Part shown: piece by piece, positions 1-10,900 of the stretch
How the letters are laid out: the number at the start of each line of letters is the position of its first letter
How positions within the stretch are numbered: the stretch's first letter is position 1
DNA from: a virus
DNA length: 21,210 nt
Reading direction: 5' to 3' (one strand)
IMG/VR virus record: IMGVR_UViG_3300021351_000043
Span: 1-21,210 of that record
Position numbers and translations under genes: made by a program
The notes under the pieces: generated by a model
The model's input: only the letters and a program-made list of their open reading frames with translations
What the model was told of the DNA's origin: nothing
Databases searched by the model: none

Positions 1-1190
1 CCAAACCCCAGCATCACTTTCTCTTCATCGTATTGGCCTGTATTTCGATTCTGCTGGTGAATCACGAAAACATGGGTTGCCCTTGGGTCGGGCCCCACAA
101 AACAATCAATCTCGTCCTCGTCTGTCCCCTTGGTGCGTTTGACATAGCCATAGGCATACGTGAGCAGGGTTTCACCTCGATTGCCTTCAGCGTCCTTCCA
201 ATAGCGTTTGGAGCCCTTTCGATTCTCGATGACAATCGGGATGCCCTGGAAAGTGATTTGATCTTGCAGCACGATGGCTTTTCGCAGATCTTCTTCTTCC
301 AACATGGCAAGCTCGAGGTCGGCTTCATTCTCGTATACTTTGCCAAACTCCCCGCCGGGCACTAGATCGTCATTCTCATCAAACCCCCAACCCTCCGGGA
401 TATAAACAAGAACGCATTGACAATTTGGATGAACAGTTCCTACCACCGCTTTCCAGTCTTTGGCCTTCCTTCCCACGTTCGTACCGTTGGCCTCGAGCGT
501 GGAGAGTTTGAAAATCCGCGGGTGGCCTTCCTTATCAAGGTGAAGCCTTTTGCAGTGCTGGCAAGCGTCGGGCATTATCCTCTTTGCCACAAGCGCATCC
601 CCGCCGTATCGCTTTCGATACTGATCGGCCAACCCGTTTTGCATGGCAGTGTGCTTCTCGGTAACCGAAATACGTTCCCAATCGCGTTCCCAATCTTTGG
701 TCGCCCAGCCAAGATCGGACTTCAACTCCTTGACCGTCTTGCGGCGTTCAATGGCTTCCTGAACTTTGTCCTTAATGGTTTGCCGCATTTTGGCTTGTAA
801 TGCCCGATCAGCATTGATCATAACCTCACCCGTCTGGGTGTTGATTCGATTGCCCAACCCACGGCAATACTGTGCGGCATGAAGTTGGGCAAACTTCACG
901 GCTTGTTTTTCCACGTCGGTCAAAGGGATCGGATTCTTTTTGACGTACTGTTTGAATTCCTTAATCCCCATCTTGGCCACGGTTGGATTTTGCAAGATGC
1001 CAATCAGCTGACCGTAGAGATACGCATCTTTGATTGACTCAGCTTTGGGTTCAACCAACCCTAGCTTTTTCAGTTCGGCCAAGATCTCCGGTGGAACCGC
1101 ATCCGGTGAGATCGCGTTGACAATGAAAGCATGGTGATGTTTTTCAATGATCTTCGTGATTGCTTGGATCTGTTCTGGAGTCAAAAGCAT
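1..1190 (-). CDS. Phage head morphogenesis protein (Mu gpF / SPP1 gp7-like) fused to an InPase domain, C-terminus cut off by window edge
   Basis: 396 residues are visible and the frame stays open to the left edge. Residues about 100-260 look like the MuF family of minor head proteins. They include the paired cysteines C210-x2-C213 (ACQHCKRL) and the closing H-P-N-C-Q-C at 254-259, a metal-binding signature typical of the family. From about residue 300 a second module begins (TFQGIPIVIENRKGS), then YGYVKRTKGTDEDEIDCFVGP and an IHQ..N...YDE.KVMLGF stretch. I recognise this as the phage InPase-type (inorganic pyrophosphatase-like) domain often attached to MuF proteins. The ATG at 1190 has GGGAGG seven bases upstream. 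MuF proteins usually follow the portal gene and act inside the procapsid or are ejected with DNA; here about 10 kb of accessory genes separates the two. Confidence 0.85.
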   Translation of the reverse strand, partial: MLLTPEQIQAITKIIEKHHHAFIVNAISPDAVPPEILAELKKLGLVEPKAESIKDAYLYGQLIGILQNPTVAKMGIKEFKQYVKKNPIPLTDVEKQAVKFAQLHAAQYCRGLGNRINTQTGEVMINADRALQAKMRQTIKDKVQEAIERRKTVKELKSDLGWATKDWERDWERISVTEKHTAMQNGLADQYRKRYGGDALVAKRIMPDACQHCKRLHLDKEGHPRIFKLSTLEANGTNVGRKAKDWKAVVGTVHPNCQCVLVYIPEGWGFDENDDLVPGGEFGKVYENEADLELAMLEEEDLRKAIVLQDQITFQGIPIVIENRKGSKRYWKDAEGNRGETLLTYAYGYVKRTKGTDEDEIDCFVGPDPRATHVFVIHQQNRNTGQYDEEKVMLGF

Positions 1191-1252
1191 TGAGCATCCT
1201 CCCTATCCCGATCCGACTGGAAGGCACCATTTTTGTCAATGGCTTGGCGAAA

Positions 1253-1281
1253 TTGTCAAACGAAAAAAGCTTTGCTACACT
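1253..1281 (+). promoter_or_regulatory. Plus-strand sigma70-like promoter P1
   Basis: The -35 is TTGTCA (1253-1258), followed by a 17-base spacer and the -10 TACACT (1276-1281). TGC stands directly upstream of the -10, an extended -10 element. It points away from the minus-strand head gene and toward the hairpin at 1304-1342. Inferred from sequence only. Confidence 0.6.
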
Positions 1282-1287
1282 CAAGAC

Positions 1288-1342
1288 TGATTCGCGCTTT
1301 GGGCCGTCCCTTCCAATTGTGGAAGGGGCGGACTTTTTATTT
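1288..1342 (+). ncRNA. Candidate short RNA, unit 1 of tandem plus-strand array
   Basis: The expected transcript runs from about seven bases after the P1 -10 box to the U-tract of the terminator at 1304-1342, roughly 50 nt. It has no ATG-initiated reading frame. It lies antisense to the prevailing gene direction in a gap with no supported protein gene. No known RNA family was recognised, and existence depends on P1 being active. Confidence 0.45.
1304..1342 (+). terminator. Intrinsic terminator Ta, plus strand
   Basis: An 11-bp stem (CCGTCCCTTCC with GGAAGGGGCGG, one G-U pair) closes a 6-base loop and is followed by ACTTTTTATTT. The opposite strand has no T-tract after the stem, so the polarity is plus. 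Confidence 0.75.
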
Positions 1343-1369
1343 GCAATCCACTTCACTCTTTGTTACGTT
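1341..1369 (+). promoter_or_regulatory. Plus-strand promoter P2
   Basis: The -35 is TTGCAA (1341-1346), then a 17-base spacer and the -10 TACGTT (1364-1369) with an upstream TGT (extended -10). The -35 begins inside the U-tract of terminator Ta. Taken alone it is weaker than P1, but it repeats the same layout. Confidence 0.45.
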
Positions 1370-1375
1370 GGGCTC

Positions 1376-1438
1376 TACCAAAGGTGACGAAGGCTTAATC
1401 ATGGTGTGAGGCTCCCAATCCCCCGGGAGCCTTTTTAT
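1376..1438 (+). ncRNA. Candidate short RNA, unit 2 of tandem plus-strand array
   Basis: The expected transcript from P2 to terminator Tb is about 62 nt. It contains a minimal two-codon frame, ATG GTG TGA at 1401-1409, preceded by GAAGG and ending where the terminator stem begins. Whether that frame is meaningful is unknown. No known RNA family was recognised. Confidence 0.4.
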
Positions 1439-1440
1439 TT
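1409..1440 (+). terminator. Intrinsic terminator Tb, plus strand
   Basis: A perfect 8-bp stem, AGGCTCCC with GGGAGCCT, encloses an 8-base loop and is followed by TTTTATTT. The minus strand shows no T-tract after the stem. Confidence 0.75.
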
Positions 1441-1467
1441 GGCAGATTTTTGCGCTTGTGCTACTGT
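1439..1467 (+). promoter_or_regulatory. Plus-strand promoter P3
   Basis: The -35 is TTGGCA (1439-1444), a five-of-six match. A 17-base spacer and the -10 TACTGT (1462-1467) follow, with TGC directly upstream. As with P2, the -35 begins inside the U-tract of the preceding terminator. Confidence 0.5.
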
Positions 1468-1473
1468 GGATAT

Positions 1474-1538
1474 GGTTCGATTGACATTTGATCTCTTGTT
1501 TCGATAAGCCCGCTTCCCCCTCAAGCGGGCTTATTTAT
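1474..1538 (+). ncRNA. Candidate short RNA, unit 3 of tandem plus-strand array
   Basis: The expected transcript from P3 to terminator Tc is about 60 nt. It carries an 11-codon frame starting ATG GTT CGA at about 1473 and ending TAA inside the first arm of the terminator stem, with no clear ribosome site. A second TTGACA (1480-1485) lies within the unit, but its -10 would fall in the hairpin. No known family was recognised. Confidence 0.4.
1504..1538 (+). terminator. Intrinsic terminator Tc, plus strand
   Basis: A perfect 12-bp stem (ATAAGCCCGCTT with AAGCGGGCTTAT, 1504-1515 and 1523-1534) has a 7-base C-rich loop and is followed by TTATA. Its second arm contains the stop codon of the convergent minus-strand gene (1531-1533). 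It could stop plus-strand transcripts before they run antisense into that gene. Confidence 0.65.
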
Positions 1539-1977
1539 ACCCTGTGACCCAAATTGCAAGTGAATGAAGATCACTGCCCTCAAGGGTCGGCCCTTGCCTA
1601 TCCACCCCCCAAGCCAATGCCCAGCCGATCCAATCCCGTTGGTCTTGCAGATTGCCGATCATAGAATGAGCATGCGCATCCCGTGAAGCCAACCCTAAAG
1701 CTCGAACCAACTTCAATTGATTAATAGGGATTGGAACGTCCAACGGGTTGCGCAGATACCAACCGCCATAGTATCGACGATAACAAGCCATATGAACCTT
1801 TCCCCGCATATGGGAGATCAACACATAGAGCAACGATCGAAACGTTGGGGTTGAATTGCCTGGGATAGCCTCTTTGATTAGTTGACGCAATTGCCCATGG
1901 TATTTACGCCATTGGTGCTTTTCACAACAACCGTCCGATTGACATAGACCTCCATCGCTTGGTTCCACGCAAAGCAT
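1531..1977 (-). CDS. Hypothetical protein, 148 aa
   Basis: I do not recognise this protein. The ATG at 1977 follows GGGGAGG with four bases of spacing, which fixes the start well. The N-terminus is Cys-rich (C3, C12, C17, C18, with H21), and the centre is rich in Tyr, Trp and Arg (YRRYYGGWYLRNP). No signal peptide or membrane segment is evident. The gene is set apart from its upstream neighbour by a promoter and a strong minus-strand terminator hairpin (1997-2052), so its expression may depend on read-through or attenuation. It is the last gene before the 340-base non-coding gap. Confidence 0.7.
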   Translation of the reverse strand: MLCVEPSDGGLCQSDGCCEKHQWRKYHGQLRQLIKEAIPGNSTPTFRSLLYVLISHMRGKVHMACYRRYYGGWYLRNPLDVPIPINQLKLVRALGLASRDAHAHSMIGNLQDQRDWIGWALAWGVDRQGPTLEGSDLHSLAIWVTGYK

Positions 1978-1989
1978 ATTGCCTCCCCT

Positions 1990-2052
1990 ATCAAATCAAA
2001 AAGGGGCTGGGTGCGGAAGGAGTTACACTCCCCGGCAAGCCCGCACCCAGCC
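1990..2052 (-). terminator. Intrinsic terminator / attenuator Te upstream of the 148-aa gene
   Basis: A perfect 12-bp inverted repeat (GGCTGGGTGCGG at 2005-2016 pairing with 2041-2052) encloses 24 bases that themselves form GGAGT/ACTCC. Read on the minus strand the stem is followed by CCTTTTTGATTT. The hairpin ends about 27 bases before the start codon of the 148-aa gene, so it sits in a possible leader. Confidence 0.75.
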
Positions 2053-2063
2053 TGAGGTGAGAA
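1997..2063 (-). ncRNA. Candidate short RNA or attenuated leader, minus strand
   Basis: A transcript from promoter P5 would run about 65 nt to the U-tract of the terminator at 1990-2052. It could be a stand-alone short RNA, or the attenuated leader of the 148-aa gene that follows. Confidence 0.35.
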
Positions 2064-2069
2064 TAGAGT

Positions 2070-2098
2070 ACTATTGCAACAAAGCAAGCCGAGGTCAA
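2070..2098 (-). promoter_or_regulatory. Minus-strand promoter P5
   Basis: Read on the minus strand: -35 TTGACC (2098-2093), a 17-base spacer, and -10 AATAGT (2075-2070) with TGC directly upstream. It starts just past the stop codon of the 71-aa gene. Confidence 0.5.
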
Positions 2099-2102
2099 CC
2101 AT

Positions 2103-2318
2103 TTACCAACTGGCTTTGTCTTCCTCAGCCAAGCATTCTTGTAATCCTCGTTCCATGATAAACCAACGCGGTAAAACCAGACCCCCCGGAACTTGATCCA
2201 CAATCACACTTTCCGGTATCCATTCCATGCTTTTGTTTGGGAAGCGCACACGTCGTGCGCGTACAGTCTTTCGAAGGTACTTTTCAACTTTCACCGTGAA
2301 CAAATCTCGAAAATCCAT
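2103..2318 (-). CDS. Hypothetical protein, 71 aa
   Basis: I do not recognise this protein. The frame is open further upstream, but that part overlaps the preceding gene. The ATG at 2318 has AAAGG six bases upstream and lies ten bases after the preceding stop, so I place the start there. The protein is basic in its first half (VEKYLRKTVRARRVRFP) and hydrophobic/aromatic in its second (LVLPRWFIMERGLQEC). No catalytic motif is visible. It closes the run of short overlapping genes that begins near 5900. Confidence 0.7.
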   Translation of the reverse strand: MDFRDLFTVKVEKYLRKTVRARRVRFPNKSMEWIPESVIVDQVPGGLVLPRWFIMERGLQECLAEEDKASW

Positions 2319-2328
2319 CGAATGCCTT

Positions 2329-2757
2329 TCAATGTTTGGTGTGGTCTTTTTGCTTCTGGCCAAAGATTGAATCCAAAAGTTGATAGATCTGTTCTTTGGT
2401 TGGCGAAGAATGTTGACCATCGCATTCCTCACAATCTCCCTCGCATTCTTGTGCATCTGGCACGATTGTGATTTTTTGCGTATCGAAATTGAATTTCATG
2501 TTGGGTGCTTTTTCGAAACCTAGATCGCGCATCAAAACAGCATCCACCGGCCCCCAAATCACCCGATGATTTTTCCGTCGATGGAAATCCAACTCTTGCA
2601 GCTTAAGCTGAAAAGCCGCTTTGGCCAACTCCATTTCATCGCCCAACTTGTGCGCCGCATCCACAAGCTCTTTTTGCTGCGCCATCAACCGCAAAAACTC
2701 TTGTTTGATTTCCTCGTCCTTCTCCTCAAAAATAACCACGTCGTTTTCGATTTTCAT
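2329..2757 (-). CDS. Hypothetical coiled-coil protein with C-terminal Cys cluster, 142 aa
   Basis: Function is unknown. Residues about 12-58 are Glu/Lys/Leu/Gln-rich with heptad-like spacing, suggesting a coiled coil. A middle region (HRVIWGPVDAVLMRDLGFEK) precedes an acidic cysteine cluster near residues 103-110 (CEGDCEEC), which may bind metal. I chose the ATG at 2757, which shares ATGA with the upstream stop and has GGAG eight bases before it. A GTG three codons earlier is possible but less well placed. Confidence 0.75.
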   Translation of the reverse strand: MKIENDVVIFEEKDEEIKQEFLRLMAQQKELVDAAHKLGDEMELAKAAFQLKLQELDFHRRKNHRVIWGPVDAVLMRDLGFEKAPNMKFNFDTQKITIVPDAQECEGDCEECDGQHSSPTKEQIYQLLDSIFGQKQKDHTKH

Positions 2758-3104
2758 TTTGACCACTCCACTAAATTTTCAAACTTGAAAAACTTTGGAA
2801 TCATCAACGCGTGTGCAATTTTCAAAAGCGCAAGCGTTGACGGATCGTTTTGCCACCCAGGCAAAACCATGATAGCGTCACAACGACGCATTACATGCAA
2901 AACCGCTGAATCCACTTTGTCTATTGGTAATTGATCATCAATGTTTTGGTGTTGTGCCTGGGGGCACATCGGGATGAAATTATGAGCGTACAACTGCAGC
3001 ATCATCTTTTCTGCAATTCGAATCCAGGGCAATCGCTCCCAATATGAAGGCATATGGAAAGGGCCAGCAATCAACACAATCAGCTGTTCGTTGTAGCCGA
3101 TCAT
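2754..3104 (-). CDS. DUF4406 / nucleoside 2-deoxyribosyltransferase-like protein, catalytic Glu apparently lost
   Basis: The 116-aa protein has the layout of small NDT-fold proteins. An N-terminal strand VLIAGPF (residues 10-16) is followed by a helix with an Ala-Glu-Lys pattern, then RRCDAIMVLPGW (73-84) matching the family's CD.I..L.GW strand. The usual next segment is G-W-x2-S-x-G-A-x2-E. Here it reads GWQNDPSTLAL, so the position of the catalytic glutamate is L93. That suggests a binding rather than enzymatic role, or a diverged site. The start at 3104 shares ATGA with the upstream stop, and GAGGG lies ten bases upstream. Family-level call only. Confidence 0.65.
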   Translation of the reverse strand: MIGYNEQLIVLIAGPFHMPSYWERLPWIRIAEKMMLQLYAHNFIPMCPQAQHQNIDDQLPIDKVDSAVLHVMRRCDAIMVLPGWQNDPSTLALLKIAHALMIPKFFKFENLVEWSK

Positions 3105-3400
3105 TTTTCTTTGCCCTCATGGGCAACAAAGTCCTCATACGATTCACAACCTCGCCAGAACTTGAAGCACCCTCGATATTGCCCATTAGATTCGAACTTG
3201 TTTTCTTCTAGCTCTTTGATCCCCATGTCTTCGGTCAATTGAAAACCATCGATCTCAAATTCCATCGGCCAATGTTTTTCCCCCGTGCTTTCAATGATTG
3301 TAACGATCACTTTTCGCCGTTTGTTTCTTGGCGATCGGCGCACTGTGCTTTGCAAACGATTTGGTTTCGGTAGTTCTTCAGTGATCCGTTTTGTCGTCAT
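3101..3400 (-). CDS. Hypothetical protein, 99 aa
   Basis: I do not recognise this protein. The ATG at 3400 has an excellent GGGAGG site six bases upstream and overlaps the end of the preceding gene by 23 bases in another frame. The N-terminal third is strongly basic (RRSPRNKRRKVIV) and leads into a beta-strand-like segment and an acidic half. Two cysteines and aromatic residues sit near the end (GCFKFWRGCESYEDF). Nucleic acid contact through the basic stretch is possible but unproven. Confidence 0.7.
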   Translation of the reverse strand: MTTKRITEELPKPNRLQSTVRRSPRNKRRKVIVTIIESTGEKHWPMEFEIDGFQLTEDMGIKELEENKFESNGQYRGCFKFWRGCESYEDFVAHEGKEK

Positions 3401-3740
3401 TGATCGCCTCCCGCAATTGCACAAGCAATTCCCAAGGATTCACACCTCGAAGAAATCCACACAATTCACTTGCAGTCACTTCCCGCCAAATGCCTTCTGA
3501 GAAATCGTAATAATCAATATACGATCCATCCTCCAACGTTCCGCCATAGACTGGGGTGGGCATTCCTTCCCAAACGTGAAGCCCGTATTCTGGATCATCT
3601 TTGGTCAATCCTCCTTGCACTTGCTCAAAGAAGACTGTTGCATCGGAATGAACTAAACCCTCTACCGTTTGCCCGTAAACACAGATGGGGAAAGGACCAA
3701 ACTCACTGAAAGCAACCATCACTTTTTCGTATTGCACCAT
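3378..3740 (-). CDS. Hypothetical protein, 120 aa
   Basis: Function is unknown. The protein is acidic and rich in aromatic residues (YGLHVWEGMPTPVYGG, IDYYDFSEGIW) and seems to be a compact soluble domain. No signal peptide, membrane segment or known motif is visible. The ATG at 3740 follows GAGGGGG with four bases of spacing. Its leader carries a long inverted repeat (3757-3811), and it is the first gene after a 170-base gap, so it may be independently regulated. Confidence 0.7.
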   Translation of the reverse strand: MVQYEKVMVAFSEFGPFPICVYGQTVEGLVHSDATVFFEQVQGGLTKDDPEYGLHVWEGMPTPVYGGTLEDGSYIDYYDFSEGIWREVTASELCGFLRGVNPWELLVQLREAINDDKTDH

Positions 3741-3756
3741 AAGACCCCCTCAAAGA

Positions 3757-3811
3757 CCTGTTGCAGGTGACCATCAACCCTGTCTGTTAGATTTAGGTTG
3801 CCCGCAACAGG
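3757..3811 (-). promoter_or_regulatory. Structured leader upstream of the 120-aa gene
   Basis: CCTGTTGC (3757-3764) pairs with GCAACAGG (3804-3811). Inside, CAACC (3775-3779) pairs with GGTTG (3796-3800), giving a two-part stem. On the minus strand it ends 16 bases before the start codon and beside the GAGGGGG ribosome site, with no T-tract. A leader regulatory structure is an inference. Confidence 0.4.
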
Positions 3812-3819
3812 CCACAAAA

Positions 3820-3854
3820 TTTTGTTGACAAAAATGTGCTTTCCACGATACAAA
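3820..3854 (+). promoter_or_regulatory. Plus-strand promoter P4 with dyad over the -35
   Basis: A consensus TTGACA (3825-3830) is followed 18 bases later by TACAAA (3849-3854). The -35 lies inside a 14-base dyad, TTTTGT-TG-ACAAAA (3820-3833), which looks like an operator. The -10 is weaker than in P1-P3 and lacks the TGn extension. Confidence 0.45.
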
Positions 3855-3860
3855 AACCAT

Positions 3861-3920
3861 TGTCATTCCCTTAGCCGACTTTCCAGCCCACTGTCACCCG
3901 CGAAAGTCGGCTATTTTATT
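3861..3920 (+). ncRNA. Candidate short RNA, unit 4, plus strand
   Basis: The expected transcript from P4 to the terminator at 3872-3920 is about 60 nt and is dominated by one hairpin. There is no protein frame in it. It is convergent with the minus-strand 71-aa gene, whose stop codon falls in the terminator stem, just as in unit 3. Confidence 0.4.
3872..3920 (+). terminator. Intrinsic terminator Td, plus strand
   Basis: A perfect 12-bp stem pairs TAGCCGACTTTC (3872-3883) with 3902-3913 across an 18-base loop, followed by TTTTATT. The minus strand lacks a T-tract after the stem. Confidence 0.65.
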
Positions 3921-4126
3921 CCCTGTGGATCCACTATCAATATGCAACGCCACACACCGCTTGACTCCTCAAACAATGGCTTGATCACTGCTTTAATTTT
4001 GAAGCCCAATCCAAATTCATTCAACAAAAACGAATTGAGCTGAAACACGGCAAACGCTTTCGTGTCTGCAAACACTCGGAGGTCAAGCCGTTCAGGTTTT
4101 TTGTCACTGTTCATCGGCAAGTGCAT
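3911..4126 (-). CDS. Hypothetical protein, 71 aa
   Basis: I do not recognise this protein. It overlaps the end of the sigma4/XRE/alpha-CTD gene by 23 bases in a different frame. GAGGA five bases before the ATG at 4126 supports that start; an in-frame ATG at 4114 is a weaker alternative. The sequence alternates hydrophobic and charged stretches (FAVFQLNSFLLNEFGLGFKIKAVIKPLF) and ends in a strand-like CILIVDPQG. Translational coupling to the upstream regulator is likely. Confidence 0.65.
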   Translation of the reverse strand: MHLPMNSDKKPERLDLRVFADTKAFAVFQLNSFLLNEFGLGFKIKAVIKPLFEESSGVWRCILIVDPQGIK

Positions 4127-5039
4127 AACCTTCCTCAGCCAATATTGATTGTATTTCCTTCAATGTTCGCTCACCTAAATGACGAACGGTTGTCAACAAT
4201 TCGTTTGGAGTCCATTTCAAAAGATCGCCCAAATAATATATACTCATACGATCCAAAGAATTCAAAGCCCGCGTTGAAAATTCAAGTTCATACAAAGGAC
4301 GGTCCCTTTCCTCCTCAGTCAAAACTTGTGATTTTATCGTCTTCACTTCTTTAGGCTCAATGCTCAAAGTGTCTTTATTGCGAACTACCCAACCCGTCTT
4401 ACTTTCGAAATCCTGCAACAAAGCTCGTAATTCTTTCCATTGACTGGGCAAATCCAGATAGCGCATATCCACAGTAGGTTTTGGCTTTTCGTTGCTCATC
4501 GCTTCAATTTGCTTTTTTGTAGGCTTATACAGCAATTCGGCAGGGTCAACCTGTAACAAATAGCTTAGCTGATAGATACTTTGCTTCTTGACTGATTGAT
4601 TCCCGCTCAACCATTTATTTACCGCACTAACACTACTTCCTAAAGCCTCAGCCGCCATACGAATTGTCAAACCTTTTTGCTCAAATAATTGCTTCAATTT
4701 GTTGGCGTCCAACGTCAACAAACGATAATCAGCCAAAACACCTTCAGCATAAGGATCACATTTGACTTCCAACTTTTTGCCTTTTTCTGCCAAATAAAAT
4801 TGGCGTCGAACATCTGTGCATGCTTGATAAAATCGCTTATGTATTTGGCCTGGCGTTGTATCAAACAGCTTAGCAAGTTCAGCCAATGTATGTTTTTCTT
4901 CTTTACCCAATCCTAAGCGCAAAACAATCAAACGCGATTTTGGATAAGACACTGCAGTCAACGCTTTTTCTACCAATGCAAAATCTGCATCGTATCCCAT
5001 TATTTTTTTCACTTTGCCGCTTTCAACTACTCGACCCAT
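4104..5039 (-). CDS. Putative transcription regulator: sigma region 4-like HTH + XRE-type HTH + RNA polymerase alpha-CTD-like domain
   Basis: This 311-aa protein has three recognisable DNA-binding modules. Residues about 20-82 resemble sigma70 region 4 (LIVLRLGLGKEEKHTLAELAKLFD, then TTPGQI and a final VRRQF). The recognition-helix residues that contact the -35 in sigma70 differ: T-P-G-Q-I-H-K replaces T-R-E-R-I-R-Q. Residues about 111-172 form an XRE/Cro-type HTH (LFEQKGLTIRMAAEALG, VSAVNKWLSGNQ). Residues about 246-309 match alpha-CTD (RPLYELEFSTRALNSL, YLGDLL, HLGERTLKEI). They keep the equivalents of the DNA-contacting R265, N268, G296 and E302, and of the sigma-contacting E261. No sigma region 2 is present, so it is not a complete sigma factor. 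The start at 5039 has GGAG seven bases upstream and overlaps the preceding gene by 17 bases. I infer control of promoter choice by host RNA polymerase. Confidence 0.8.
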   Translation of the reverse strand: MGRVVESGKVKKIMGYDADFALVEKALTAVSYPKSRLIVLRLGLGKEEKHTLAELAKLFDTTPGQIHKRFYQACTDVRRQFYLAEKGKKLEVKCDPYAEGVLADYRLLTLDANKLKQLFEQKGLTIRMAAEALGSSVSAVNKWLSGNQSVKKQSIYQLSYLLQVDPAELLYKPTKKQIEAMSNEKPKPTVDMRYLDLPSQWKELRALLQDFESKTGWVVRNKDTLSIEPKEVKTIKSQVLTEEERDRPLYELEFSTRALNSLDRMSIYYLGDLLKWTPNELLTTVRHLGERTLKEIQSILAEEGYALADEQ

Positions 5040-5238
5040 TTTTCTTCTCCAAAAATGATCGCTTCACAATAACCGTTTGCCCACCATGCAAAGGGCACCA
5101 ATCTGGACTGGGAAGCCGCGACCCTTCAGGTTGCAATTCTCTAGCTTCCTCAGGATGCATGCAAAACAGCGTAGCCAGATTGCACAATGGGCAATTCTTG
5201 CAATCCTCGTCCTCCAACACTACCCGATAACTAGTCAT
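5023..5238 (-). CDS. Small Cys-rich putative zinc-binding protein, 71 aa
   Basis: The N-terminal half has C13-x2-C16-x2-C19 and C26-x-H28, followed by W-C48-P-L-H51. That is enough ligands for one or two metal sites. Compact phage proteins of this kind are common and mostly uncharacterised; I cannot assign a function. The ATG at 5238 shares ATGA with the preceding stop, and GAGGG lies eight bases upstream. The C-terminus is basic and Ser-rich (VKRSFLEKKNGSSS). It directly precedes the sigma4/XRE/alpha-CTD gene and may be co-translated with it. Confidence 0.7.
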   Translation of the reverse strand: MTSYRVVLEDEDCKNCPLCNLATLFCMHPEEARELQPEGSRLPSPDWCPLHGGQTVIVKRSFLEKKNGSSS

Positions 5239-5552
5239 ACAATCGGCCCTCGAAGTTTCCGTTCAATAACCTCCCCACGTTCATTTTTGATCTCATCAAT
5301 CGTCATATCATCCACCCATTGGAGCGCTTCAGCCACCGCATAAGAACCGTCTGGATTGCACTGTTGCGTAGATACTTGCACTAAACACCCAGCTTCAGTA
5401 GCCAATGCTTTGGTTGATTTCATCCAACCTTCACTCTGGGAAGATGCTTTGCAAATCAGCTTCCAAGCATCCCCATCACCAAACACTTCAATATCAGAAG
5501 TTACTTTTTTTGCTTGTGCAATCGATGTGTTGTTCCAGGTTTTATCAATCAT
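5235..5552 (-). CDS. Conserved phage protein of unknown function, 105 aa, second copy of a tandem paralog pair
   Basis: The protein shares a clear core with its upstream neighbour: FGDGDA-x-KLI-x-K, then S-x-SEGW, TKAL, QV-x-TQQ-x-N, LQW and a terminal RKL. The pair therefore arose by tandem duplication and diverged. No enzymatic motif is evident, though the shape of the core is familiar to me from small phage proteins of unknown function. I place the start at the ATG at 5552, which has GAGGG five bases upstream, rather than the longer frame that overlaps the neighbour. Confidence 0.75.
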   Translation of the reverse strand: MIDKTWNNTSIAQAKKVTSDIEVFGDGDAWKLICKASSQSEGWMKSTKALATEAGCLVQVSTQQCNPDGSYAVAEALQWVDDMTIDEIKNERGEVIERKLRGPIV

Positions 5553-5563
5553 TTTTCCCTCTA

Positions 5564-5893
5564 TCACTGACCTATTGCTACCAATTTACGATTGACAATT
5601 CGACTATTTTCGTCTTTAAATTCTTTGATACGCACTCCCGGTATCCATTGTAGCGAATCGCTGATCACATAGTTATCATTGGGCGGACTTTGGTTTCGTT
5701 GTTGCGTTTGAACTTGAAGCACACAACCAAGACCATCAACCTGCAACGCTTTGGTTATCTCCACCCAACCTTCAGAGACCGAATAAATTTTCGAAATGAG
5801 TTTAAATGCATCCCCGTCCCCAAAAATCGTTGCATCGGGAATGTCTTTCAGGGTTTGTTTGACTGAATTGTTTTTCCAATTTTGATCCTTCAT
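5564..5893 (-). CDS. Conserved phage protein of unknown function, 109 aa, first copy of a tandem paralog pair
   Basis: This is the upstream member of the duplicated pair, with FGDGDAFKLISK, SVSEGW, TKAL, CVLQVQTQQRN, LQW and NRKLV in the same order and spacing as the next gene. It contains a short Asn/Pro insertion (NQSPPNDN) that the other copy lacks. The ATG at 5893 shares ATGA with the preceding stop, indicating coupling, while its own ribosome site (GTGAGAAG) is weak. Function is unknown. Confidence 0.75.
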   Translation of the reverse strand: MKDQNWKNNSVKQTLKDIPDATIFGDGDAFKLISKIYSVSEGWVEITKALQVDGLGCVLQVQTQQRNQSPPNDNYVISDSLQWIPGVRIKEFKDENSRIVNRKLVAIGQ

Positions 5894-6084
5894 TTCTTCT
5901 CACTTTCAAAAATCAATTTCGTTTTACGGTTTTGAATATGCAGCCAATCGGGGATTTTCAATCCAACGTAAAAATTACCTGTATGCGGAACAAACCAAAC
6001 ATTGTGTTTGCGCTCTTTGGCTCGCTTCAATGCTTTGTCCTTATCAGTGAGCCAACGCCCGCGTTCTTTAATCACACGTCCCAT
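5890..6084 (-). CDS. Hypothetical basic protein, 64 aa
   Basis: I do not recognise this protein. It is strongly basic (ERGRWLTDKDKALKRAKERKH), then has an aromatic, strand-rich half (VWFVPHTGNFYVGLKIPDW). I start it at the ATG at 6084, which overlaps the preceding HTH gene by 13 bases and has GGGG upstream. A longer frame would overlap that gene extensively. Its place directly behind two HTH genes suggests the same transcription unit. Confidence 0.6.
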   Translation of the reverse strand: MGRVIKERGRWLTDKDKALKRAKERKHNVWFVPHTGNFYVGLKIPDWLHIQNRKTKLIFESEKK

Positions 6085-6302
6085 TGTGGCCCCAAATCTT
6101 CCTGTTCTTCTACTTGAACAATCCTTGATTCCAACCAATCCAAAAGCATCTTTTTCGGAAAGCGAACCATTCGACTGCTCAAACGCACATGAGGAACACG
6201 TTTATGGCAAACCATCGAATACAAGGTTGTCTTTTTTACACCCAACAATTTCGCAGCCTGTTCATAATTCAAATGCTCGTCCAAATATCGTTCATCTGTC
6301 AT
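6072..6302 (-). CDS. Excisionase/MerR-like helix-turn-helix DNA-binding protein, 76 aa
   Basis: Residues about 10-58 follow the winged-HTH pattern of the excisionase (Xis/AlpA-like) family. LNYEQAAKLLGVKKTTLYSM gives the first two helices, and VPHVRLSSRMVRFPKKMLLDWL gives the wing and following helix. Such proteins act as small DNA-bending or regulatory factors. The start at 6302 has AAGGGG upstream and shares ATGA with the preceding HTH gene; the longer frame lacks such a site. No integrase gene is in the window, so a role in excision cannot be inferred. Confidence 0.75.
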   Translation of the reverse strand: MTDERYLDEHLNYEQAAKLLGVKKTTLYSMVCHKRVPHVRLSSRMVRFPKKMLLDWLESRIVQVEEQEDLGPQWDV

Positions 6303-6469
6303 TGGTCTTCCCCTTCCAATCGTCTTTTTCTCAACCAAGAATATAAAGTCCATTGAGACACCTTGATTGCACGCAAAATTTCAAGCATCGAAGATCCAGC
6401 CCTTTTCATCCTGTCATGCCGTTTGAGCGCTTTTTCCTTTTCCTCTTTTGTGTACCGTTTCTTTTTCAC
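6299..6469 (-). CDS. Small helix-turn-helix protein, 56 aa, GTG start
   Basis: The basic N-terminus (KKKRYTKEEKEKALKR) and the sequence SMLEILRAIKVSQWTLYSWL form a homeodomain-like HTH of the kind found in transposase and resolvase DNA-binding domains, here without a catalytic part. The best start is the GTG at 6469, because GGAGG lies six bases upstream. An in-frame ATG six codons earlier would have the ribosome site inside the coding sequence. It overlaps the preceding gene by 56 bases and is coupled by ATGA to the next HTH gene. Confidence 0.7.
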   Translation of the reverse strand: MKKKRYTKEEKEKALKRHDRMKRAGSSMLEILRAIKVSQWTLYSWLRKRRLEGEDQ

Positions 6470-7007
6470 GATCCCCCTCCATCTCAAATTTGGAAAATGA
6501 TGAAGTTGTGTTCACCACTACGCTTGCCGGGAATTCCTCTTGTACTCGATACCCACTACTATTCACCCGTGTTACATGTAGCAACGTTCCTACTTCGTTC
6601 CAATGCAATCGGATTACCTTCTTGCAAAGATTCGTTGCTACGCCTGGAAGAAATGGATTGAGTTCAGCCAACGTCAAATCTTCGTGGTAGAAAGCATAAG
6701 CGACACCCACCCGATAAGGATTGCAAAGTACTGCAAACAAAAGTTCCCCAGGCTTTGCCCGTCGAATGTGATTTCGTCGCAATTCCAAAGATTCAATCCC
6801 AAGTTGCGGGTGTTGAACAACCTCGTTGATCAAACTTTTCGAAGTCCATGTTTTACCGTGATCCACGCATTTGATTTGGATCCAAAGATCTGAATCAATC
6901 TTTGAGAAATACCAGCGTTGAGCTTTTGCACTTATTTCAAACCGCGAACCGACTGGGGAAGCTTTTAGCTGTCCCTCGTGGGCGCTTGCCTGTTCCCATG
7001 GGATCAT
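6414..7007 (-). CDS. Hypothetical protein, 197 aa
   Basis: I do not recognise this protein. The frame is open 47 codons further upstream, but that part is a shifted reading of the lipoprotein gene. The ATG at 7007, just past the lipoprotein stop with GGAG eleven bases upstream, is the likely start (MIPWEQ). The protein mixes strands and helices (YRVGVAYAFYHEDLTLAELNP, VIRLHWNEVGTLLHVTRV) and ends in a basic tail (KRGKGKS). No known domain is evident. Confidence 0.6.
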   Translation of the reverse strand: MIPWEQASAHEGQLKASPVGSRFEISAKAQRWYFSKIDSDLWIQIKCVDHGKTWTSKSLINEVVQHPQLGIESLELRRNHIRRAKPGELLFAVLCNPYRVGVAYAFYHEDLTLAELNPFLPGVATNLCKKVIRLHWNEVGTLLHVTRVNSSGYRVQEEFPASVVVNTTSSFSKFEMEGDREKETVHKRGKGKSAQTA

Positions 7008-7015
7008 GTGTGGAT

Positions 7016-7321
7016 TTACTCCGCTTTGGGTTTTTCTTCTTCTACCTCGAGCTTGCCTTTTGGTTCTTCTTTGGCCTTTTGTATCGGCCCATCGTCCACT
7101 GGGCATTTGGAAGGCTTGCCCTCCGAATTGAATTTGGGCGCCAACCAAGAAAGACCGATTCCGCGTGAATAGTAGTACTCAAATCCATCCAGACAAACGA
7201 TCTTCGGGTTTGTGGAGATTTGCTTCATTTCAATTTGTTTGACCTCGGGCCTCATATCACTTTTGGATGCAACACAACCGATCAACACGAATGACAGCAA
7301 CACCATACCTAGCAGTTTCAT
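7016..7321 (-). CDS. Small predicted lipoprotein, 101 aa
   Basis: The N-terminus MKLLGMVLLSFVLIGC is a type II signal peptide with a lipobox ending in C16. The mature protein would therefore be anchored to a membrane of the infected cell, which suggests a Gram-negative host. The rest is hydrophilic and ends in a Lys/Glu repeat-like tail. Two cysteines (in VCLDGFEYYYSRG and SKCPVDDG) may form a disulfide. The ATG at 7321 has AAGGGG upstream. Small phage lipoproteins serve as outer spanins, exclusion factors or receptor blockers. No inner spanin partner or other lysis gene is beside it, so I leave the role open. Confidence 0.75.
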   Translation of the reverse strand: MKLLGMVLLSFVLIGCVASKSDMRPEVKQIEMKQISTNPKIVCLDGFEYYYSRGIGLSWLAPKFNSEGKPSKCPVDDGPIQKAKEEPKGKLEVEEEKPKAE

Positions 7322-7366
7322 ACCCTACCCCTTTCGTTTGCATTTAATAGGTTTCCCTTCAGAATC

Positions 7367-7510
7367 TCAAAACCCCACGTTCGAATAAGTTGAATTGGCG
7401 GTTTTGGGCGTCCCCAGGTACCGCCGAACCTTGGTTGCTGTTTTATCCGCATTGAACGCAACCGAGCACAATGCAGGTGGCATATTCGTCTGGGCCGATC
7501 TTTTATTCAT
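7367..7510 (-). CDS. Possible small protein, 47 aa
   Basis: A short ATG frame (MNKRSAQTNMPPALCSVAFN..., ending in TYSNVGF) fills most of an otherwise empty 232-base gap and is followed after 45 bases by the lipoprotein gene. The ribosome site for the ATG is weak. A TTG four codons earlier (7522) has GGGGAG eight bases upstream and would give 51 residues. The protein is basic (TATKVRRYLG). I have no family match, so this rests on gap position and plausible composition only. Confidence 0.4.
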   Translation of the reverse strand: MNKRSAQTNMPPALCSVAFNADKTATKVRRYLGTPKTANSTYSNVGF

Positions 7511-7553
7511 GCCACGAACCAACTCTTATTCTCCCCAGACCGTTGGTTGAATG

Positions 7554-7754
7554 CTATTCCATCCAGAGTAAACAACCATCTGTTGAGCATCTCGCCCAAA
7601 TGTGCTTGTTGCTGTGCTGTTCGTAAATCAACTCTTCTTGGCAGATTGGGCAGGAAATCTTGCCTCGATTGTTCCCGGTTTTCTCGATTTCTTGCACGAT
7701 CAAAGATCGGGCTTCCCCTATCGCTTGCGCTTGTTTCTCTATGGCAACCCACAT
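7554..7754 (-). CDS. Small zinc-ribbon protein, 66 aa
   Basis: After a helical N-terminus (GEARSLIVQEIEKTG) come C35-P-I-C38 and, 18 residues on, C56-x4-C61 followed by LLWME at the end. This is a minimal zinc ribbon. Similar small proteins are common in phages of Proteobacteria and remain uncharacterised. The start is uncertain: the ATG at 7754 has no strong ribosome site, while a TTG at 7760 overlaps the stop of the Acb2-like gene (TTGA) and would be coupled to it. Confidence 0.7.
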   Translation of the reverse strand: MWVAIEKQAQAIGEARSLIVQEIEKTGNNRGKISCPICQEELIYEQHSNKHIWARCSTDGCLLWME

Positions 7755-7756
7755 GA

Positions 7757-7972
7757 TCAATTAGTCCGTCGCGCAACCGCTGCGTTTGCCCACATGATTG
7801 CAGTTTCCAAGGAAGTGATTGCAAGCGATTGCTCCCGGCTTTCCGGGCAAAGATCAACAATCAGCTGGGCAAACTCTTTTGCTTTGTCCTTCAGCTTGAT
7901 GTAGCGTTCTTGTTGGTCCCCCTTTGGTGGGTGGTACGTGAATCGGTTTTCCAATTCTTGATCGTCAATCAT
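7757..7972 (-). CDS. acb2: Acb2-like anti-CBASS cyclic nucleotide sponge, 71 aa
   Basis: The protein carries the pattern I associate with the Acb2 (T4 Vs.4-related) family. ENRFTYHPPK (residues 8-17) is followed by an Arg/Lys-rich helix ending in A-K-E-F-A, then CPESREQSLAITSLE and IMWANAAVARR. Known members form hexamers and bind cyclic di- and trinucleotides made by CBASS cyclases, which blocks effector activation; some also bind Thoeris-type signals. The length fits the family. The start at 7972 has GAGGGG eight bases upstream; an earlier in-frame ATG overlaps the helicase stop. It lies directly behind the SNF2 gene, so early joint expression is plausible. The exact ligand range cannot be read from sequence. 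Confidence 0.8.
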   Translation of the reverse strand: MIDDQELENRFTYHPPKGDQQERYIKLKDKAKEFAQLIVDLCPESREQSLAITSLETAIMWANAAVARRTN

Positions 7973-7983
7973 TTTCAGTCCCC

Positions 7984-10900
7984 TCATTCCTTCCCGCGAA
8001 TCAACTTCAACAGCTGATTCGTCGAATACCCATACAGCGGGCCTCCTTCTTCAAAATCTGCATCCACATAACCACGACGCTTCAAAATCTGCTTTACCCG
8101 CGCATAAGCGATCCTATCTTGCTCAGCTGGCACAGCGGTGTGATCATGGTATTCTTTAGCTGTTTTTGCAGCTTTGCCCCAATTACCGCTTTTTCCCACG
8201 ATAAGCAAGCTTTTTTCTTCTGAGCTTGCAGAAAGCGATTTTTCTGCCTCTTCCTCGATTTGAGATGATTCATGCGCTTCTGGGCCAGCTTGCAGCCCCC
8301 GAATTTGATCCAGCAATTCTTTCGGAGTGAGCCGCTTGTTCATCCATTCAACTTCCTCAGGGGTCAATTGCTTGCCTTGATTCACCTTCTTAGCAAGCTC
8401 ATACTTCCGCAACAAGATCGCGTTAATGTTCGCATCGAAAAGATTGCCCTCAGCAGTAACCCAATACACATTGACTGCGTTCTTCTGCCCAGGCCTATGA
8501 ACCCTATCCTCAGCTTGCCGAAGGTCTGCCGCAGTCCAAGGAAGGTCATTGAACACAACCTTGTCAGCCGCGGTCAAAGTAGCTCCTACCGCCATTGACT
8601 GGCGGGTGGTAACGAAAACTCGTTTTTCAGAGACAAACTCACCTTTGTCATCTTGCTTTTGAAATTCAGCCTTCACATTCTCCCGCGCATTGTCACCCAT
8701 TTGACCATGGTGCAACACCGCTTGATCTCCAAATTGCGCTGCAATATCTTTGGCCGCCTGGACAGAATCAGAGAACACCAAAACTCGAGAATCCGAACTA
8801 TTCAAAATTTCCTTGACTACCTCTTTAGTCGCTGATACCTTCCCCCTCGCAATCTCGTCTTTCAATCGAGAAAACTGTCCAATCATTTCTTCTGCAGGTA
8901 AATCCAAATCTAAATCAGGCAAACCAGCAACGGGTTGTTCCATGATCTGCGTTGTTTTATCCGGCAAGTCCTTCAACACAATCGATTTCAAACGCGCAAG
9001 ATAGATATCTCTCAAATCCATCCAAAGACCACCAATGGTTGAACCTTTGATCTTCTCCTTGGTGTACTCTCCTGGTGCAACCAAATTCAATTGGGTGGTC
9101 AATTCTTCTCGCTTGTTTTTAATTGCTGTTCCCGAAAGCAAAATTTTGTGCTTCATATCTTTAGCAACGGCTTGTACTGTCTTTGTGACTTTTGCTTTTG
9201 GATTCTTGATGCGGTGTGATTCATCAACTACAATGGTGTCAAAACCTGCCTCAGAAATTTGATCCTTGAACTTGGCCAACGATTCGAAATTGACCGTGAC
9301 AATGTTTGAATCACCCAGATCAATCTTTCCCTTCTTTCTCAGCATGGCTGGGGTAAGTTCAGTTCCTTGGAAATGTTCCGGGAAAAACTTTGCAGCTTCC
9401 TGCAACCATGTACGACGAACTACCTTCGGACAAACCACCAAAATTTTCTTGTTGTTCTTGGCTGCCCATGCTAGGGTTTGCAGCGTCTTGCCCAAACCCA
9501 TCTCATCGCCTATCAATGCGTTCCCACCGGTTTCGTCCAAGAAACGCACGCACTCATTTTGATAAGGGAATAGATTGAAACCTGGGGCCAACTTTTCTTG
9601 TACTTCAGGGATTGGCTTTTGTAATTCAGCCAAATATTGATCACGCTCAATTCTTGCTTCTTTCACCCCTTCGGTCACAATTTGAAAATCAGGCAATCGG
9701 GCTTTGATTTTTTCAATCGCCTCTTCCACCAAATCAAGATCATAAGTTTCGCGCCCGTGGTTTTCAGGATTATACTTGGTGATCCCTGAAAGCTGCCCTG
9801 TCTTATTTGAAAACAGCTGATTGAATTCTGGACTGTAAGGGGAATAGAACGCGAACTTCCCATCATCATACCGGATAACGGCAATCGTATTTTTAATTTG
9901 ACGCCTAAGGATACCCTCTTTCACTTCTGTGGCAGTAAGGTCTTTGACCGTTCCATCACCTTCTTTTTCTTGCTTCGGTGGTATCTCTGCAGGCTCCGCA
10001 ACATCAATCCCCAATTCAATCATTCGTGCTCGATACTCATCAAAATCAAAATCGGCTAAATCTCCCTTAGGGATATACCAAGTCCGTTCACGACCATCAA
10101 AACGTGCCCCAAACTCTTTTTGCAAAGCTACATATTTTCGAAATGCTTCGCGATCAATTCGACCATTGACTGGAAGGAGCAAACTTCCAAACGTTTTGTG
10201 ATATTGAGGTTTCACCCCCGTTGCTTTGGGTGGATCACTCAATCCACAATGGTAGTAATCTAGCCCAAAAGAGTGACAAAGTTGCCTTCGGTATTTGCGC
10301 AACACCCAGCGCATTTTTTCCAAATCACCACGCACACCATACCAAATTTGAAAATCAGAACTATTGAATCCCGTGTCATCTTGAACATCATGCATGCGAT
10401 CTTGCGCGTCATAGAGCGCATCGCCCATCTGTTGCAGCTTTTCGATCGCTTCATCGTCTCCAAAGCGTTTTTCTGGAATCTCTTCAGGCTTCAATCTTGC
10501 CAAATCTTTGATCGGCTCTTTCACCGGTTCAGGATTGGGATCTTCCAAATCAAGAGGCGGGGCCGGCTCTATCAGCTTTTCAACCGCTGCCTGGAAGGGC
10601 GCAAGGGCCGTGGGTTCGTCCGGTTTGAATGTCTCTTCAAACTGCTCTTGGCGTTGCTCCAAAATGGCTTGCTGCTTTTCGGTCCCGTGCTCTTTGGCTG
10701 CCTCCACCATGCGATCAATCTTCTTGCGCCGTTGCTCAATCTCTTTGGCGTGCTGGCGATGGAGGAACTTTTGCAAAGCCTTTTTGTTGAAAACGTGAAT
10801 CTCCCCCGTCTCATCATGCTCCACGGTCACCTGCTCACCTTGGATCTTGAGCACGGTCAAATGACCTTCCGCATCCTCGGTTACCACTTTGAACTTAGCT

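Follow-up and report, generated by a model that had tools for sequence, protein, structure and literature searches.

A tandem array of three predicted small-RNA genes with fused terminators and promoters at the edge of a phage accessory block

Why should a phage whose genes run leftward carry three short rightward units in a row, each opening with a promoter and closing with a hairpin? The units lie in a 21,210-base IMG/VR virus record, the whole of which is the window analysed here and whose genes are on the minus strand. Over 123 bases, the left end of the window overlaps exactly with another record, L003, in which the same gene continues, so the two come from the same phage or from nearly identical ones. 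The portal protein of this phage is up to 78% identical to those of relatives in uncultured phage contigs, and its 39-42% identity to the portals of SPO1-type phages indicates a distant relation. No integrase was found on the window or on the overlapping contig. The promoters and hairpins of the array, and their clustering, can be read directly in the DNA; the RNAs are predicted:

1253 to 1281, plus strand: promoter 1, TTGTCA-17-TACACT with a TG extension
1288 to 1340, plus strand: predicted small RNA S1, about 53 nt, with a 4-nt loop in its terminator and then CTTTTTATTTG at the end
1341 to 1369, plus strand: promoter 2, TTGCAA-17-TACGTT with a TG extension, its -35 overlapping the U-tract of terminator 1
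1376 to 1438, plus strand: predicted small RNA S2, about 63 nt, with terminator stem 1408-1433 and loop AATCCCCC at 1417-1424
1439 to 1467, plus strand: promoter 3, TTGGCA-17-TACTGT with a TG extension, its -35 overlapping the U-tract of terminator 2
1474 to 1536, plus strand: predicted small RNA S3, about 63 nt, with a 12-bp hairpin at 1504-1534, loop CCCCCTC at 1516-1522 and a weak T-tract

Each unit is predicted to have a dedicated promoter immediately 5' of it, an extended -10 promoter sequence in all three cases, and the start of S1 was placed at an inferred position 7 nt past the -10. The sequence-only reading had described the -35 hexamers, the 17-base spacers and the TGnTAC extended -10 elements exactly as they are, together with repeat periods of 88 and 98 bases and the CTTTTTATTTG found at both joints (1333-1343 and 1431-1441). 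It had also judged this shared format unlikely to arise by chance, and rightly so, as three such promoters inside 190 bases are far from chance even with a loose motif. The strict motif TTGNNA-N14-TGNTACNNT is present at three plus-strand positions of the window, 1253, 1341 and 1439, and is absent from the minus strand. For both strands together, Markov shuffles give an expectation of 0.025, a flattering figure because the motif was derived from the three cases themselves. The looser TTG-N17-TGnTAnnnT has six plus-strand matches in the window, the three of the array included, for an expectation of 0.8 on both strands. Just upstream, TTGTCAA is directly repeated with 21-base spacing (1232-1259, plus strand), its second copy providing the promoter 1 -35; the repeat is a possible operator.

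These counts bear on the simplest alternative, that promoter-like and hairpin sequences have come together by chance in a non-coding spacer that is never transcribed. Across the window, the totals of promoter-like and terminator-like sites show no excess over shuffles, as this view would have it, and promoters 2 and 3 appear weak in their hexamers: over the 12 hexamer positions, promoter 1 matches the sigma-70 consensus at nine, promoter 2 at seven and promoter 3 at eight, so that the last two would rely on their extended -10. However, what is unusual about the array is the clustering and the common format of its sites, not their number. Together with strong hairpins that are followed by T-tracts and with the rarity of the arrangement elsewhere, this makes a chance origin very improbable, and we consider it likely that the three units are transcribed.

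Do the units also end as they should? A strong hairpin with a T-tract had been claimed for every one of them. The claim is borne out for units 1 and 2; in unit 3 the hairpin is there, but the T-tract is poor. A terminator scan accordingly picks up the first two and misses the third, where the T-run is absent and TTATTTATA comes after the hairpin, and termination of S3 at this point is presumed. Folding of the whole predicted transcripts gives -24.0 kcal/mol for unit 1 and -21.3 kcal/mol for unit 3 (z -4.4 and -4.0 versus shuffles), and -19.9 kcal/mol for unit 2, with a moderate z of -1.6.

No protein gene is supported at the locus, as had been noted before, since the array has neither a credible open reading frame nor a plus-strand gene behind it. 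Among the listed frames of at least 60 aa, only a 75-aa plus-strand frame with a TTG start and a 70-aa minus-strand frame with a GTG start run across it. For unit 3, an 11-aa peptide translated without a leader was weighed and dropped, its start being just 4 nt past the -10. No Rfam family reaches its gathering score for the units, and a likeness of unit 2 to the PyrG leader and to plasmid ctRNA was set aside, as the matches are far under the gathering scores. With no plus-strand gene downstream, no credible frame, no Rfam family and an array that is nearly unique in the DNA scanned, three short non-coding units are the best reading of the locus. This much of the small-RNA cassette proposed from the letters alone has held; the antisense or sponge action proposed with it is still inferred.

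The three RNAs do not look like copies of one gene. Whole-unit alignments were equalled by 30, 51 and 224 of 500 shuffles for the pairs 1-2, 1-3 and 2-3, and alignments of the unit bodies by 46, 201 and 456 of 500, respectively. The units thus align little better than shuffles, which suggests a common format and not a recent duplication; and, since S1, S2 and S3 are unrelated in sequence, the array is not there for dosage.

How rare is such an arrangement? One fixed rule for terminator-promoter-terminator arrays, applied to 2.52 Mb of viral and other DNA that is redundant and partly selected for promoter patterns, finds only the window (twice, L001 being the window itself) and L043, where one promoter-terminator unit lies 3' of another terminator. 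The rule is strict and overlooks looser arrays, for example in L168. There, after a lysin-like gene (500-1150, minus strand), terminators run into promoters and apparently form two short promoter-terminator units with no gene. The tandem-promoter pattern occurs in 98 stretches of viral contigs; a hairpin with a T-tract stands between the promoters in three of them (L024, L073 and L076, the latter two having one hairpin in common), and hairpins follow both promoters in none. Two of these three cases were inspected, and each has a short promoter-terminator piece closely 5' of a gene. The fused T-tract/promoter pattern was found in 56 stretches of viral contigs, 18 of which are flanked by a hairpin on at least one side, so the terminator-into-promoter joint as such is common in phages. 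No terminator array was seen, by eye or by script, in the nine genome-contig stretches with the strict tandem pattern, and the cassette DNA has no match among phage and plasmid records. Nor did the literature searched, at the level of titles and abstract openings, yield a phage array of this form. The array is a real, rare arrangement of ordinary parts.

Gene 3-1190 is separated from a helicase gene by some 6.8 kb of small genes, an accessory block (1191-7983) that has the array at one of its edges. Three genes serve as landmarks:

3 to 1190, minus strand: conserved gene with an inorganic-pyrophosphatase-like domain (PF18823) and phage head-type matches, its start adjoining the array
1531 to 1977, minus strand: orphan gene of 148 aa that converges on the array and overlaps the S3 hairpin at its 3' end
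7757 to 7987, minus strand: Acb2/Tad1 hairpin-domain protein of 76 aa (PF24729, E 8e-22), at the far edge of the accessory block

In the 450 bases read 5' of the homologue of gene 3-1190, the cassette is present in none of 22 relatives' loci, among which L140 to L142 give like results and probably represent a single virus. An antisense terminator-like hairpin is found in three of the 22 and an antisense extended -10 promoter in none, and in 21 the preceding open frame overlaps the homologue or ends at most 66 bases from it (the gene start being approximate by a few bases in L103, L107, L139, L140, L141, L142 and L146). The 22 loci without the cassette are also without the entire accessory block. 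Except for one match of 3101-3424 in L003, the genes of the block have no match in the 49 loci compared, and the protein of 1531-1977 has no relatives in viral contigs or phage records. We infer that the block is an accessory region for dealings with the host.

The block also encodes an excisionase-like HTH protein and, on the minus strand at 4104-5039, a 311-aa protein with an HTH_3 domain and an RNA polymerase alpha C-terminal domain, for which searches of viral contigs and phage records, at the sensitivity applied, gave no relatives. Neighbouring genes at 5235-5893 (minus strand) encode a pair of small paralogues with 45% identity and an FGDGDA motif; their relatives occur at six loci in other viral contigs, where no array was seen.

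The protein of 7757-7987, judging by its domain, is probably an anti-CBASS/anti-Thoeris sponge, and an Acb2/Tad1-type gene in the same block raises the idea that the RNAs are themselves anti-defence decoys, either CRISPR-repeat mimics of the Racr kind or RNAs that soak up an RNA or protein of a defence system. Racr genes, according to PMC10651486, likewise give short RNAs from a promoter and are found in clusters with anti-CRISPR genes. However, 6 kb separate the Acb2 gene from the array, and no repeat is common to S1, S2 and S3. Nor is there any CRISPR-repeat family among the eight weak Rfam matches (E up to 5), in a database that includes only some CRISPR repeats. Decoy action therefore seems decidedly improbable to us, and three small-RNA genes of another kind a better account.

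The position of the array invites a different objection: the RNAs could be inert, and the three rightward promoters and terminators a device in cis that works against the leftward operon and hampers or insulates its transcription between 1531-1977 and 3-1190. Indeed, the array lies exactly between these two leftward genes, and S3 enters the 3' end of the first, overlapping its stop codon. The hairpins have no T-tracts on the minus strand, so that leftward polymerases would not be stopped there by termination. Yet interference would not call for as many as three promoter-terminator pairs, and a device of this sort leaves the C-rich loops described below unexplained; we regard it as a tentative possibility.

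Small-RNA genes must also be weighed against the phage's own use of similar parts, for which the gene next to the array offers an example:

1990 to 2098, minus strand: module before gene 1531-1977, with promoter TTGACC-17-AATAGT (TG extension), leader hairpin and T-tract

The order 5' of gene 1531-1977 is promoter, short leader, strong hairpin with a T-tract, and ribosome-binding site. On the overlapping contig, the head maturation protease gene is preceded by the same arrangement (L151, 1033-1160, plus strand), and the promoter-short leader-hairpin architecture is also found in L107, L108, L110 and L140, L111 being a scan match only. A promoter with a short hairpin leader is thus recurrent in this phage group, and the array is this format minus the genes. 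Before the head protease and in the four other loci, the layout may serve as a switch for attenuation or antitermination.

If the array were made of antitermination modules, short terminated RNAs would be its default product and a phage factor would permit read-through, as at lambda pR'-tR'. The modules before 1531-1977 and the head protease, their counterparts in the other four loci and the HTH/alpha-CTD protein of 4104-5039 all speak for this. But a late gene on the same strand behind the terminator, as in pR'-tR', is absent; what lies downstream is the antisense of leftward genes, and read-through from the array would yield only their antisense RNA. Three serial modules with no gene behind them are a poor fit, and a known antiterminator was not found. 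We consider antitermination improbable.

This brings us back to three small-RNA genes, and to the loops of their terminators. The loop of hairpin 2 is AAUCCCCC and that of hairpin 3 is CCCCCUC, both C-rich and of the UCCC type, and S1 has no exposed C-rich loop. The reading from the letters alone had mentioned neither these loops nor the accessory anti-defence setting and the modules of promoter, leader and hairpin in other parts of the phage. Both array hairpins with loops of 6-9 bases (hairpin 1, with its four, is not in this count) have CCCCC in the loop, versus 7 of the 1,289 hairpins used for comparison; these come from other loci, some of which overlap, so that both of these numbers contain repeats. 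Finding two out of two has a probability of about 3 in 100,000, taken as the rate squared and calculated after the loops had been noticed. One of the loops also has a counterpart in the phage itself:

3378 to 3740, minus strand: candidate target gene of 120 aa, behind a structured leader
3745 to 3753, minus strand: TTGAGGGGG, complementary over 9 bases to the S3 terminator loop and part of the ribosome-binding site of gene 3378-3740

Together with the bases on its flanks, the S3 loop is perfectly complementary to this ribosome-binding site over nine bases, and the site is the only one of 25 with more than six. Nine-base matches occur in 54 of the 21,190 20-base windows of the strand, the array included, from which about 0.06 would be expected in 25 sites; both the loop composition and the match were noticed post hoc, and the target was chosen from 25 sites and two loops. 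In the predicted leader, the ribosome-binding site is partly paired. This leader, of about 170 bases with two long hairpins (3741-3940, minus strand), lies between a promoter-like TTGATA-16-TAAAAT and gene 3378-3740.

A search of the phage's own transcripts for targets, which had been put forward as a check, came out negative: the contiguous complementarity of the 5' parts of the RNAs is no better than that of shuffled RNAs. In whole-RNA duplex energy with 44 start regions of the phage, none of the three RNAs beats shuffles. Two pairings of S3 were discarded, one near 2010 (minus strand) that beat 8 of 8 shuffles in the whole-transcript scan and was then matched by 15 of 40, and the best contiguous helix, with 1933-1945, which 20 of 60 shuffles equalled or bettered.

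We can now propose how the array would work. Transcription by host RNA polymerase would begin at each extended -10 promoter, run for 50-65 nt and end with release at the hairpin, the U-tract of which would double as the -35 of the next unit, and these fused joints would allow three RNAs to fit in 290 bases. Once released, S2 and S3 would pair through their C-rich terminator loops with G-rich Shine-Dalgarno sequences and block translation as LhrC does, with gene 3378-3740 as the candidate target of S3 in the phage and further targets possible in the host. That the RNAs act by base pairing is, to us, about an even bet, and gene 3378-3740 is a doubtful target, to be taken as a lead only. For the locus as a whole, read as three independent small-RNA genes in tandem with S2 and S3 acting by anti-Shine-Dalgarno pairing, we would put the chances at roughly one half. 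A fuller picture, in which a compact cassette in an anti-defence block makes three unrelated fused RNAs, two of them with C-rich seeds that silence G-rich ribosome-binding sites of the phage and possibly of the host, is speculative and rather unlikely. The fused terminator-promoter joints are recognisable from sequence alone, and similar cassettes could be searched for in uncultured phages; the C-rich loops make a concrete and cheap prediction of the mode of action of the RNAs.

Among known systems, lambda oop, which is encoded opposite coding genes, and the pR'-tR' 6S RNA are short phage RNAs that run from a promoter to an intrinsic terminator. The units of the array are built in the same way, but the lambda RNAs are single units and not a fused trio, and an antiterminator was not found here. 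Phage small RNAs are known mostly from enterobacterial prophages. PMC12197685 and PMC13192938 agree with these as the main source, and the Pas RNAs of E. coli prophages are described as multiple copies that are not tandem duplications (PMC13192938). Closer by portal, though still a distant relation, is the group of the Listeria phage CKA15 (Herelleviridae), which has highly transcribed non-coding loci that are promoter-driven, as the units of our array are predicted to be; according to PMC12282133, these RNAs are without canonical intrinsic terminators and without UCCC motifs, whereas the array has hairpin terminators and C-rich loops. Racr RNAs are short phage RNAs with their own promoter near anti-defence genes (PMC10651486). 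The array differs from them in having no CRISPR-repeat match in Rfam and in hairpins that resemble terminators. The lhrC genes of Listeria, several in tandem and each with its own promoter, are near-identical copies. According to PMC4132741, the UCCC or CUCCC of the LhrC terminator loop touches the G-rich Shine-Dalgarno region and blocks translation, and C-rich loop motifs of this kind are characteristic of small RNAs in low-GC bacteria. The units of the array are not clearly alike among themselves or to LhrC, and have no Rfam match at gathering score. LhrC is one family, whereas S1, S2 and S3 are unrelated, phage-borne and known from their sequence alone; what they have in common with it is the grouping of several small RNA genes and, in S2 and S3, the C-rich terminator loop.
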